Source: Moraxellaceae bacterium
GTDB taxonomy: Bacteria; Pseudomonadota; Gammaproteobacteria; Pseudomonadales; Moraxellaceae
Direction of reading: 5' to 3'
NCBI GenBank assembly: GCA_004173455.1
Contig: SECL01000014.1
Location: 1 to 64,000 of the forward strand
DNA: 64,000 nt
The first letter of the stretch is position 1. Each line of letters starts with the position of its first letter. The notes under the pieces are model-generated. The model saw nothing but the letters and a program-made list of their open reading frames with translations. It was not told the DNA's origin and did not search any database. Below are positions 9,159 through 44,778 of this stretch, piece by piece. The translations under genes were made by a program, and so were the position numbers.

Positions 9159-9836
9159 ATGTATGCGTCTTCCAACTCGTCGTTAAGCACCGATGTCTTT
9201 TCACCCATGCAGCTGCCAGCTTCGCTCAAGATGCTGCTTAAACACGCACAAATTCGTCGCTACCCGAACCGCACGACCATTGTGCAGGCAGGCGCTGAAT
9301 CGTCGTCGCTATATTTGATTTTAAAAGGCTCGGTTTCCATCATCATTGAAGAAGATGAAGAACGTGAAATTGTAGTAGCGTACCTGAATGCTGGCGACTT
9401 CTTTGGTGAGATGGGTTTGTTTGAAGAAAAATCACAGCGTTCCGCCGAAGTCCGTACCCGTGCCATGTGTGAAATTGCAGAAATTAGCTATGAAACTTTC
9501 CATGAGCTGGCCAAGATTTATCCTGATCTTAGTTACGCGGTGTTTGCCCAGCTGGTACGTCGTCTGCGCAATACCACGCGCAAAGTCACCGATCTGGCCT
9601 TCATTGATGTGACTGGCCGGATTGCACGCTGCCTGCTGGATCTGGCTTCACATCCTGAAGCCATGATTTTGCCCAATGGCCGCCAGATTCGCATTACCCG
9701 TCAGGAAATTGGTCGTCTGGTAGGTTGCTCACGTGAGATGGTTGGCCGCGTACTCAAGTCGCTAGAAGAACAAGGCATGATTGAAACCGAAGGCAAGGCG
9801 ATTTTGATTTATGATCCCAATACAGATACCGAATAA
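9159..9836 (+). CDS. crp: Crp/Vfr-type cAMP receptor transcription factor
   Basis: Cyclic-nucleotide domain GDFFGEMGLFEEKSQRSAEVRTRAMCEIAEI and HTH ITRQEIGRLVGCSREMVGRVLKSLEEQGMI. Confidence 0.9.
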   Translation: MYASSNSSLSTDVFSPMQLPASLKMLLKHAQIRRYPNRTTIVQAGAESSSLYLILKGSVSIIIEEDEEREIVVAYLNAGDFFGEMGLFEEKSQRSAEVRTRAMCEIAEISYETFHELAKIYPDLSYAVFAQLVRRLRNTTRKVTDLAFIDVTGRIARCLLDLASHPEAMILPNGRQIRITRQEIGRLVGCSREMVGRVLKSLEEQGMIETEGKAILIYDPNTDTE

Positions 9837-10626: not shown

Positions 10627-10725
10627 CTGGTGTGCGCTTTATTGCAAACCTTAGCAGATTAGTGCAGCAATTCTTCAGCAATCTATGTAAAAATAAGGGC
10701 GAATTAAGTTTTTTAAAGGATCGCC

Positions 10726-11271
10726 ATGCCATTAATTATTGGAATTGACCCGGGTTCACGCCTGACAGGGTATGGCATTGTCGAAAAAGAGGGCTCCAAG
10801 CTGCTATTTGTGGATGCAGGCACCATTCGCACCGATACCATGGACATGCCTGAACGCCTGAAACGGATTTTTGATGGCATTAGCCGCATTGTGGATTTTT
10901 ACAAACCGACCGAATCTGCCGTAGAGCAGGTATTTATGGCGCAAAATCCTGATTCTGCGCTGAAACTGGGTCAAGCACGCGGCGCAGCAGTCACAGCGCT
11001 GGTCAATCAGGATTTGAGTGTGGCCGAGTATACCGCACGCCAGATCAAGCAATCGGTGGTGGGTTATGGCGCCGCGGAAAAAGAACAAGTGCAAATGATG
11101 GTGATGCGCCTGCTTAGCCTGAGTATCAAACCGCAAGCCGATGCAGCCGATGCGCTTGCCTGTGCGATCTGTCATGCGCACACGTCAGGAAGTCTGGATC
11201 GGCTGGCCGTGATGAACCTGATTGGTAGTGGCATGGCGCGTGGCAGAACGCGTGGGGCGAGAAGGCGTTAA
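10726..11271 (+). CDS. ruvC: Crossover junction endodeoxyribonuclease RuvC
   Basis: [20 protein letters not shown]...[24 protein letters not shown]...[16 protein letters not shown]. Confidence 0.95.
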
Positions 11272-37877: not shown

Positions 37878-39656
37878 ATGAAAGATAAGTTAAAACAGTT
37901 TTGGAATGAACCTGTTAACCGCTTTTGGTTAACTTGCGCTTTTGGAACCTTATTTGCTTTGTGCTTTGGTATCTATAGCTTTTTCGAGAAATCACTTAAT
38001 CCAGTTATTTCTTTAGGGTTAATTAGTATTGCCCTAATCTTTGAAATACTTTTTCTCATTGCACTAATCATTAATACCTTGGCTGATACCACACGTGAAT
38101 ATTTAGAAGCATTTCAGGAAATTAATCGTGACTTGCGCTATGCACAATATCAGAAGAAAAATAAGAAGAAAGATTATAAAGGCTCAGAATGGAATGATGA
38201 AGAATTTGCAAAAATCACTGATTTAAAAGAGCGTGTTGATGCCTTTGTAAAAGCTAGTATTGAGTATCAGCAAGTAGATTTTAAGCGCTGGAAAAAGCGC
38301 AATGTGGGCATTAACTTAGATACACGTGATGAAACACTTGTTCGCAGCTTTTTAATTATTCTGGCTGGTGCATTCTCGGTTTCAATTCTGGCTTATTTAG
38401 GCTGGTTTAATTATTTGTCGGCAAGCAAACTTGCTGCACTTACCGATACCTCACGCAGTTTTTTTACTATTCCTGCTGCCTTGATTGGCACACTGGTCGC
38501 TTCACCCGTCATTTTTATGGTGTGGATGTTCCGGGATAAAAATAACCGCATCCAAATTGAAAATGCCCGGAAGGATACCAACCTAAAAGACTTTCAAAAG
38601 CTAAGTGAATGGGCTAGCGGTTTTCATCTGCCAGAAATCAAGCAAACCACGACCACTAAAATTACAAATAAAACGACTAAAGACATTCAGGAAAATACTG
38701 AAGAAACGACCACTAGCCAAGAGGATTTTCTTGCTCCAGAAGGCAGTAATAGTATTAGCCGACGTCAAGGCGCCGAAGCCTTGCAAGCTAGCGCGATTGC
38801 TCAACTAGAAGCCTTTATGTTTGGTAAGTATGGCGAACAGTTTATGCAACCTGCTTTTTTACTGATTCATGCAATTTGGGAATCTATTCTTACTCAGCAG
38901 CAGACGCGCTTTCCTGATGAGCAAAAATTTAAAAGATCTTTAGAATACCTTTATAGAAATCCAATTTTTTCAGCCCTTAATAAAGCATTAGTATCAGCCA
39001 ATGGAGCACATTTGAAATTATTTGAAGAAAGCTTAAGAGGTTTAAATTTATCAGGAATAAATAGTGAACAGCCTACTCTACAACAATGGCAACATGCGGG
39101 AAGTAATTTAGAAAATATTAATTTATCTTATGGTATTTTAACCCACGCTCAACTACAAGGTATCAATTTGAACTATGCTGAACTACACAATACAAAATTT
39201 AGTTATTCTGATTTGCATGGTGCAAGATTAAATAGTTCAAACCTTAAAAAAGCTATACTAAATTATTCTTATATGCGTTGTGTCGATTTAGAAAGTAGTG
39301 ATTTAACAAATGCTAGTTTTAATGGAGCTGATCTACAGCTCTCCATCTTAGATGAATGTTGTTTAACAAACACGAACTTTAGCTTTGCGAATTTGAAAGG
39401 CGTAAGTTTGCAAGGCTCAAATGTTGAACAAGCTATTTTTAAAAATGCTTGTATTAACAGATATACTTTATTTAGCGAAGGTAATGCAGTAGATGATTTT
39501 ATTGCGTATGGGGAAAATGAAATCCGTGAAAATGTCCTTTCTCGTGGTGCAATATGGGACGATGATCCAAGCTGGTTAATTGGTAAAATTAAAGATAAGG
39601 AGTTACTGAAAAAAATATTTCAGGATTGCCAAGAAAGAATGGAATATCCATATTGA
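37878..39656 (+). CDS. Multi-TM pentapeptide-repeat protein
   Basis: 592 aa; four hydrophobic segments in residues ~15-220; C-terminal repeats (LRGLNLSGINSEQ, LHGARLNSSNLKKAILNYSYM, LTNASFNGADLQLSILDECCLTNTNFSFANLKGVSLQGSNVEQA). Confidence 0.85.
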   Translation: MKDKLKQFWNEPVNRFWLTCAFGTLFALCFGIYSFFEKSLNPVISLGLISIALIFEILFLIALIINTLADTTREYLEAFQEINRDLRYAQYQKKNKKKDYKGSEWNDEEFAKITDLKERVDAFVKASIEYQQVDFKRWKKRNVGINLDTRDETLVRSFLIILAGAFSVSILAYLGWFNYLSASKLAALTDTSRSFFTIPAALIGTLVASPVIFMVWMFRDKNNRIQIENARKDTNLKDFQKLSEWASGFHLPEIKQTTTTKITNKTTKDIQENTEETTTSQEDFLAPEGSNSISRRQGAEALQASAIAQLEAFMFGKYGEQFMQPAFLLIHAIWESILTQQQTRFPDEQKFKRSLEYLYRNPIFSALNKALVSANGAHLKLFEESLRGLNLSGINSEQPTLQQWQHAGSNLENINLSYGILTHAQLQGINLNYAELHNTKFSYSDLHGARLNSSNLKKAILNYSYMRCVDLESSDLTNASFNGADLQLSILDECCLTNTNFSFANLKGVSLQGSNVEQAIFKNACINRYTLFSEGNAVDDFIAYGENEIRENVLSRGAIWDDDPSWLIGKIKDKELLKKIFQDCQERMEYPY

Positions 39657-42212: not shown

Positions 42213-42863
42213 TTACTCAACATTCACTCTTTGTGTACTGGTAATCAGCATGCCAAACTGGCTTTGTCTACCTGTTATTTTAAGGTCAAAAGAACCTTCT
42301 GGTAGTTGTTTATATAAGCCTTCATTAATGCACATTGCACCACTCAATTGCTGTCCATTCATTAAAATTTTGTAATAACAATTGCTATCCCTACCAGGGT
42401 GTTGATCAAAGAACTTTTTTGCATGAGCAGTCAACTGTGCTGGTTTTCCAAATATCTGTGTGATTGATTTTGGGACTGTCAGCATAATCAACATGCTCAA
42501 AAGACAGCCGATTGCAAAAAATAGTATAACCTGCACGAGCAATACGCCAAGCGTATACTCACTAAGGAATTCAGAGAAATCTGGAATCGCTAGCCTGACT
42601 ACGGTGTAGCCTAATAACAATGCCAAAATTATGCTGGGAAATTTAGAGATTTCGTCCCAATATTCATCGGTCAAAAATGGCTCTGCTATCGTAAATATTG
42701 TATATAACCATATCAGGATAAAGGGCGAAATAATGATAATTTGAATCATTAAAAACAATAAATTTAGACCTATACTTTTTTTCTTTTGCTTTAAATTTTT
42801 AATTTTTTTAGCCTTTTTTTTATTTTGAATTGAGTGCGCGCTACGTTGTTGTTCAAAAGTCAT
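42213..42863 (-). CDS. Small multi-TM membrane protein with C-terminal two-Cys domain (paralog of the adjacent gene)
   Basis: C-terminus FGKPAQLTAHAKKFFDQHPGRDSNCYYKILMNGQQLSGAMCINEG...FDLKITGRQSQFGMLITSTQRV. Confidence 0.75.
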   Translation of the reverse strand: MTFEQQRSAHSIQNKKKAKKIKNLKQKKKSIGLNLLFLMIQIIIISPFILIWLYTIFTIAEPFLTDEYWDEISKFPSIILALLLGYTVVRLAIPDFSEFLSEYTLGVLLVQVILFFAIGCLLSMLIMLTVPKSITQIFGKPAQLTAHAKKFFDQHPGRDSNCYYKILMNGQQLSGAMCINEGLYKQLPEGSFDLKITGRQSQFGMLITSTQRVNVE

Positions 42864-43432
42864 GGTTGTTCTGCTACCTGAATAGATTGCACCAAAAATC
42901 CTAATTTGCTTTGTTTCCCAATGAGTTTTGCCTTAAATTCAGTATCTGGATATTTTTCTTTACTTCTTGCCGCACAAATTTTATTGTCTTTTTCCTTAAA
43001 ATATAAAAATGTCTGACATCCCTTACCACCAATAAAAGACTTTTTTTGTGCAAGTAAAATTAATTCTGCCGGCTGCCCGCTCACTTTTGTATACAACCAA
43101 GGCAAGGTCTTATTAACTATCGAATAACTTGCTAAAGAACTCATTAAAAATGCCATAACGACAAAAAACAATCTCGTCAAAAATTCACTAAATCTTGACG
43201 ATAGTTGTCGTTTCCAGCGCCATATTCCCACTAACCGTAAATAACAAAATGTAATCAGGAATGCTAGAACAATGAGACTATAAATAGAATTTTCTTGCCA
43301 AAAATTACTTGATATAAAATCAATAAAAACCCAGCTTAAACTGGCTATCATGGCAAATATCAATAGATATGTGCCCGATAAGATACTTTCTAACGGATTT
43401 ATTAATCTACCTTTACTATTAATTTTACTCAT
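42860..43432 (-). CDS. Small multi-TM membrane protein with C-terminal two-Cys domain (paralog of the adjacent gene)
   Basis: C-terminus SGQPAELILLAQKKSFIGGKGCQTFLYFKEKDNKICAARSKEKYPDTEFKAKLIGKQSKLGFLVQSIQV; start at MSKINSKG; ATGA overlap with the next gene. Confidence 0.75.
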   Translation of the reverse strand: MSKINSKGRLINPLESILSGTYLLIFAMIASLSWVFIDFISSNFWQENSIYSLIVLAFLITFCYLRLVGIWRWKRQLSSRFSEFLTRLFFVVMAFLMSSLASYSIVNKTLPWLYTKVSGQPAELILLAQKKSFIGGKGCQTFLYFKEKDNKICAARSKEKYPDTEFKAKLIGKQSKLGFLVQSIQVAEQP

Positions 43433-43440
43433 TATTACTC

Positions 43441-44778
43441 TCAAATTTCTCCATCTCTAATCAATTTACGCCACCGCAAAATAGGCCACACACAAAACAC
43501 CGCCAACAGCGCACAAAAAGCAAAGTGAATGCTATAGCCCCAATAATCGGCCAGCACACCACTAACAATATGCACGCCGCCACCCGTTACCGCCAGCACT
43601 GACACCTGAAAGGTAAAGTCACTACCCGCCTGCTGCTTGCGGGAATAATCCATAATCAGGGTCAGCATGGCAACCAGCGCCATGGCACCAGCAAATTGCT
43701 CGATAGCATTGACGCTATACACCTGCCACGCCAGCACCTTATGGCTGTGTTCAAATTGCCAAGCGAGAAAGGTATACAGCATAAAGCTCAAAATTTGAAA
43801 TAAATTAAACCACCACAATGCTGTACTACGCGAGATATGCTTCATCCACCATGCCGCCAGCACCGCACCCAGCACAGATGCCACCGAACCCAGCATACTG
43901 GCCATCAAACCAATATTGGCCAGACTAAAGCCCATATCCACCATCATCGGCTTAACCATAGCGCCGCTTAAACTATCGCCCAGCTTAAAGGTCACTAACA
44001 CCAGCAACCATGCACGCATTTGTGGGTTATGCCAGAAATAGGCAAATTCAGTTGCAAAGAATTTGCGCCATTGTTTAAGCTGGAAAACCGGCTTGGAAGC
44101 GCCATGCGTCACAGGGTTTGTTATTTGCTGCGACCAAACAGGCTCCCGAAAAAGTAAAATGGGTAAACTGTTGAGCAACACTAGCCCAGTGAGCAGCAGG
44201 AATACCACTTGCCACGACCAGAGATCCAGCAGCAAAAGTACTGCCCCGCCACCAAAGATAAAGCCCAGCCGCGACCCCAATACCTGTACCGCATTACCCC
44301 AGTGTTGCTGTTGTTTTTGCAGTAAACGCACCGCAAGCCCATCGGTAGCAATGTCCTGTGTGGCACCCATCAGGTTAATTAAAAACAGCACAATAAAAAA
44401 ACTCAGCAGCATAACCGGACTGGCCAGCGCGTTAGGTTCCAAAAAACTAATTACTACCAGTAACAGCAAGCTGAATAACTGGGTCGGAATAATCCAGCTG
44501 CGGCTTTGTCCCCATTGGGCGGAAAAATAGCGATCAACGATGGGTGCCCACAAAAACTTGAGTGCCCATGGCGCCATGAGCAAACCAAAGCCTCCAATTG
44601 CAGCCAGTGATACATGGTTTTGACGCAAGATGGCAGGCAGTGCCTGTGTTAAAAACCCCACGGGCAAGCCCTGCGCCAGATACAGGCTCAGCAACAGGCC
44701 AATGCTGTAAGCTGGTGCTATTTTTATGGCGTTATTATTAAGGTTTTGCTGGGGCGGGGCTAACAAAACGGCATTCAT
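43441..44778 (-). CDS. MFS transporter, AmpG / RhtX-FptX-like
   Basis: YLAQGLPVGFLTQALPAILRQNHVSLAAIGGFGLLMAPWALKFLWAPIVDRY; GATQDIATDGLAVRLL. Confidence 0.83.
   Translation of the reverse strand: MNAVLLAPPQQNLNNNAIKIAPAYSIGLLLSLYLAQGLPVGFLTQALPAILRQNHVSLAAIGGFGLLMAPWALKFLWAPIVDRYFSAQWGQSRSWIIPTQLFSLLLLVVISFLEPNALASPVMLLSFFIVLFLINLMGATQDIATDGLAVRLLQKQQQHWGNAVQVLGSRLGFIFGGGAVLLLLDLWSWQVVFLLLTGLVLLNSLPILLFREPVWSQQITNPVTHGASKPVFQLKQWRKFFATEFAYFWHNPQMRAWLLVLVTFKLGDSLSGAMVKPMMVDMGFSLANIGLMASMLGSVASVLGAVLAAWWMKHISRSTALWWFNLFQILSFMLYTFLAWQFEHSHKVLAWQVYSVNAIEQFAGAMALVAMLTLIMDYSRKQQAGSDFTFQVSVLAVTGGGVHIVSGVLADYWGYSIHFAFCALLAVFCVWPILRWRKLIRDGEI

Follow-up and report, generated by a model that had tools for sequence, protein, structure and literature searches.

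P1 and P2, a tandemly duplicated pair from an accessory family of small membrane proteins in Moraxellaceae

The closest described systems to the locus presented here belong to two different contexts. Among MFS transporters, AmpG and RhtX/FptX are represented in NCBIfam by the models TIGR00901 and TIGR02718, with curated cut-offs of 350 and 356 bits, respectively. Among small protein domains, DUF2500 (PF10694; PDB 3q6c) and the BOF domain (YgiW, 1nnx) have a five-strand OB-like beta domain, a feature that is also predicted for the proteins of this locus. The locus lies in a contig of a Moraxellaceae bacterium (GenBank assembly GCA_004173455.1, contig SECL01000014.1, positions 1 to 64,000), and this whole stretch of 64,000 nucleotides is referred to as the window. 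On its minus strand, an MFS gene is followed by two small genes, P2 and then P1 (Table 1), for which the original prediction offered, as one reading, a transporter with two accessory subunits. Both small ORFs and the MFS gene were found where that prediction had located them, and the ATGA overlap between P2 and P1 and the gap of 8 bp between the MFS stop and the ATG of P2 are also seen in the window DNA. An alternative TTG start of P2, located 12 bases 5' of the ATG, would overlap the MFS stop. The GC content is 0.35 in P1 and 0.32 in P2, compared with 0.49 in the MFS gene and 0.48 in the window.

Table 1. Features of the P2-P1 locus in the window (G001 and G002 are congeners of the window genome)
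Feature	Positions	Strand	Description
P1	42213-42863	minus	ORF of 216 aa
P1, predicted parts			K-rich cytoplasmic N-terminus, three TM helices, OB-like periplasmic domain at the C-terminus (from about residue 139 to 212), cysteine pair C-x16-C
ATGA overlap, P2 stop / P1 start	42860-42863	minus	4-bp overlap, also in G001 and G002
P2	42860-43432	minus	190 aa counted from the first ATG (ATG at 43432, stop at 42860)
P2, predicted parts			three TM helices, C-terminal domain with C-x13-C; paralog of P1
AT-rich accessory segment (P1 and P2)	42213-43432	minus	variable site 3' of the MFS gene
MFS gene, AmpG/RhtX-like	43441-44778	minus	445 aa, full length, 5' of the P2-P1 pair

P1 and P2 arose by tandem duplication from a single member of a family of small integral membrane proteins that has not been described before. 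When P1 was searched against its own genome, P2 was recovered with 28% identity (E 2.8e-9 over 172 residues), and the two are the only family copies in the window genome. Their paralogy is thus real, although the similarity, which had been noticed in the C-termini, spans most of both proteins. In a maximum-likelihood tree, the three P1 sequences available form one clade (support 100/97), the three P2 sequences form another (99-100/97) and these clades are sisters (99/98), which points to a single tandem duplication before the congeners split, in line with the duplication proposed at the outset; the deeper family tree is unsure because of long branches. The family had not been recognised from the sequence and, indeed, P1 and P2 have no match above cut-off in Pfam or NCBIfam, and literature searches found no paper on the family.

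Members of the family are about 190-215 aa long. Hydropathy indicates three TM segments, and the AlphaFold2 model of P1 places helices at residues 3-58, 66-92 and 102-138, which bears out the N-terminal TM segments noted before in both proteins. This model (pLDDT 73, pTM 0.45) and that of an Acinetobacter member (16-row alignment; pLDDT 81, pTM 0.71) both combine three TM helices with a C-terminal beta domain, whose strand order in P1, b-b-b-a-b-b, is that of an OB fold. The top Foldseek matches were almost all OB folds, with YgiW among them and DUF2500 lower, but they were weak (best E 1.7e-3) and, since none reached E 0.001, the term OB-like is to be read as a statement on topology. Sequence searches of solved structures returned designed or unrelated TM proteins only. 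A cytoplasmic N-terminus and an external C-terminus are predicted from the positive charges, as 11 K/R residues are found in the N-terminus of P1 and five in the TM2-TM3 loop of P2; the same loop of P1 carries little charge. Both C-terminal cysteines are present in 13 of the 34 sequences, neither is present in 21, and no sequence has a single one. As the cysteines are kept or lost together, the extracytoplasmic disulfide that had been suggested gains support, with a Fisher p of 1e-9 that is overstated given the few independent co-losses (a 20-member Acinetobacter clade and the P2 of G002). The topology, the OB-like domain and the disulfide are all predicted.

The relatives of the pair were reached through successive profiles. 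Profile A1, which contains only the six proteins of the window's genus (three P1 and three P2), matched the proteins of the Acinetobacter rnr-prlC interval with E values from 1e-10 to 1e-3, with several weak relatives matched over their full length, and it is this profile similarity across the TM region and the C-terminal domain that places them in one family with P1 and P2. In the round with profile A2, composed of the genus and the Acinetobacter-type members, family proteins were detected in 40 of 347 Moraxellaceae genomes, mostly of Acinetobacter (37 beyond the three congeners that carry the pair). The query for the collection scan was a narrower alignment, and the named loci recovered with it identify Acinetobacter as the main group; the full family alignment, A3, has no conserved stretch. 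Members in other families are scattered among Pseudomonadales and other Gammaproteobacteria (G607, G432, G878 and G919), and a match in G876 that covered the TM region only was set aside as spurious.

Nearly all Acinetobacter loci have the family gene between rnr and prlC, and in G239, G014 and the loci outside Moraxellaceae it is found at other sites, among unrelated neighbours. Inspection of 30 prlC loci revealed that the rnr-prlC interval is mostly short and empty, and that it otherwise holds a family member, small ORFs, a VanW-like gene, a DHFR-like gene (both names assigned by eye) or transposases. This interval is therefore a permissive site with variable cargo in Acinetobacter. In two Acinetobacter genomes, the family member is followed by a gene for a protein of some 205 aa that is predicted to be secreted (L079 5433-6044 and L128 6814-7455) and for which no Pfam match was found.

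The window genome (G000) was compared with three congeners, G001, G002 and G003. The order MFS-P2-P1 is common to G000, G001 and G002, to which the pair is confined, and all of them retain the 4-bp overlap. In G003 the surroundings are alike and the MFS gene is intact, and the pair is absent. The spacing between the MFS gene and P2 is 8 bp in G000 and G002, whereas the gap of G001 contains a repeat element and measures 136 bp, so that coupling of the pair to the MFS gene is not conserved. With the overlap kept and this spacing variable, P1 and P2 are tied to each other, and their tie to the MFS gene is loose. The translational coupling initially suggested for the three genes is thus upheld for P2-P1, whose overlap is conserved in three species, but not for MFS-P2. 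Identity between congeners is 77-99% for the flanking genes measured, 32-84% for P1 and 45-64% for P2.

Several other traits of this region were recorded in the same comparison. Behind the MFS gene of G003, where the pair would be, the DNA reads as a 75-aa ORF (L049 8940-9167) with one TM segment and C-x14-C, for which no family match was found. In G001 (L047), inverted copies of a repeat of about 100 bp (9371-9480 and about 10640-10740) flank the P2-P1 pair and carry the palindrome TTCGACAAGCTCA...TGAGCCTGTCGAA; G001 contains 36 occurrences of the repeat core and G002 a single one, the core is absent from G000 and G003, and it appears to be a recent, species-specific expansion of REPIN/MITE-like type. 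Two genes, one for a GDPD-like lipoprotein and one permease-like, lie between the P2-P1 site and a CcmC-like gene in the other three congeners, and both are missing at the site in the window genome (42149-42212). Elsewhere in the window (37878-39656, plus strand), an AT-rich gene encodes a protein of 592 aa that starts with membrane segments and has pentapeptide repeats in its C-terminal part, and which is only 50-61% identical between congeners, other genes being far more alike.

The rates of divergence of the family members and of their neighbours show horizontal exchange between species. The members of G198 and G180, two Acinetobacter species, have identical DNA, yet the dS of their rnr and prlC genes is 1.5 and 1.9, respectively; conversely, G180 and G233 have an rnr dS of 0.25 and their members are merely 59% identical. 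Between G000 and G002, dS is 0.36 for P1 and 0.87 for P2; the CcmC-like gene and the MFS gene, both nearby, have values of 0.60-0.78. Wherever it could be measured in family members, omega was 0.16-0.48, which indicates that the proteins are functional and kept by purifying selection. Several genomes have copies disrupted by a frameshift, a stop or an inserted IS element. Taken at the level of sequence, the family is accessory, as it occupies permissive intergenic sites, undergoes horizontal exchange that includes allele replacement in place, evolves fast under purifying selection and decays frequently. Gain, replacement and loss of these genes are frequent among bacteria of the Moraxellaceae, and this exchange pattern is of the kind that is usual for genes under conflict.

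The explanation that we favour, and in which our confidence is about even, is that the family members are dispensable, exchangeable proteins of the inner membrane, and that their OB domain binds some target of the envelope from the periplasmic side, perhaps to protect the cell itself. P1 and P2 would have their N-terminus in the cytoplasm, and the OB-like domain, closed by the disulfide, would be held by the inner membrane on its periplasmic side, where it could bind a periplasmic or inner-membrane partner. P1 and P2, with their overlapping reading frames, probably act together as a hetero-oligomer. Any benefit would be conditional, envelope self-protection of an immunity- or exclusion-like type being the most plausible one, and in the window's genus the pair probably shares a transcript with the MFS gene without being part of the transporter. 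The partnership of P1 and P2, the binding to an envelope target and the self-protection are inferred. It counts against this explanation that, within the genus, each of the three species with the pair has it behind the MFS gene. Among the neighbours of family members, which were partly scanned against family libraries, no toxin gene was recognised. Searches by tblastn against phages and plasmids, together with scans of viral contigs, gave no copies of the family, and carriage as phage or plasmid cargo was discarded. PADLOC gave no meaningful match, only one at the level of the TM segments for an Acinetobacter member (E 0.023), and with PHROGs equally negative the known defence and phage families were rejected. 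Since no toxin gene, phage or plasmid copy or PADLOC match was found, it is the evolutionary pattern by itself that suggests the self-protection step.

A more specific form of the favoured explanation is that these are orphan immunity or exclusion proteins, whose periplasmic domain would bind and neutralise a toxin of a rival that acts in the periplasm or on the membrane (T6SS, CDI or bacteriocin), or would block the entry of phage DNA. This is possible, if somewhat doubtful: the swapping of alleles at a fixed site, the AT-rich and patchy nature of the genes, their frequent decay and the tandem duplication with divergence all speak for it, but no cognate toxin was recognised among the neighbours scanned and the searches against PADLOC, PHROGs, phages and plasmids argue in the opposite direction. 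In addition, the relative in G607 adjoins a protein with a weak match to SUKH, an immunity superfamily (E 0.005), although this is a single case and below the cut-off. It has also been considered that the proteins could be housekeeping-like modulators of envelope stress or of metal or redox status, akin to DUF2500, BOF domain proteins and NfeD. The resemblance of the fold to YgiW (BOF) and DUF2500 structures (TMt 0.40-0.50) and the lack of any link to toxins or phages would fit such a role, which is nevertheless unlikely for genes that are patchy, exchanged and often broken, and that have no sequence match to the Pfam families of DUF2500, BOF or NfeD.

As for the MFS gene, its product matches the AmpG and RhtX/FptX models end to end, with 219.9 and 177.6 bits, respectively, but it falls below both cut-offs, so that its description as AmpG/RhtX-like holds as a resemblance and not as membership, and its assignment to either AmpG or FptX was rejected. 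The true AmpG of the window genome is encoded elsewhere (G000:C46:18917-20365, 518 bits), and a separate AmpG over the cut-off is present in each of the six genomes checked (the four congeners and two genomes of the Acinetobacter group); the MFS gene in the window is therefore a second paralog and not the AmpG ortholog. Homologs of it occur in 34 of 58 relatives and, as in G003, they are present without the pair in many other genera; at 31 loci of family members in genomes of other genera, none was found within about 6 kb. The original prediction had named unlinked paralogs in other genomes as the observation that would speak against accessory subunits, and this is what those genomes revealed, linkage being limited to three congeners; as a main reading, transporter subunits are rejected on these data. 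That a P1/P2 hetero-oligomer docks on the MFS protein, so that its periplasmic OB domains present a siderophore or muropeptide substrate, is highly unlikely. The shared strand, the short spacing and the common gene order favour it, but the strand and the spacing are accounted for if the pair was inserted downstream of a gene that is transcribed; in addition, the MFS gene persists intact without the pair in most relatives, the spacer is enlarged in G001, none of the relatives from other genera is close to an MFS gene, and P1 and P2 evolve faster (dN 0.08-0.66) than the MFS gene (dN 0.05-0.11). The place of the pair behind this gene thus appears to be a peculiarity of one genus, and not a mark of transporter subunits.

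A guessed transporter complex is in this way replaced by a defined, undescribed protein family with a clear anatomy. If self-protection is its role, the alleles found in the rnr-prlC interval of Acinetobacter, and those that follow the MFS gene of the window, would mark a contest in the envelope that has so far gone unseen; if it is not, an annotation trap is still corrected, as operon proximity here does not equal shared function. It is even conceivable, as an improbable conjecture, that these proteins form a class of self-protection proteins of a new kind, anchored in the membrane with an OB fold that faces the periplasm. Their alleles would be exchanged at fixed chromosomal sites across the Moraxellaceae, and in the window's genus duplication would have given rise to a form with two components. 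DUF2500 and BOF domain proteins resemble P1 and P2 in their small beta domain through Foldseek matches of low significance, but they have no sequence match to them and the three-TM architecture does not occur in the matched structures. The uncharacterised rnr-prlC proteins of Acinetobacter (for example, of A. higginsii, A. schindleri, A. haemolyticus and A. venetianus) differ from P1 and P2 in that they are encoded by a single copy at another site, have no MFS neighbour and mostly lack the cysteine pair, but they share with them the three TM segments followed by a C-terminal domain.
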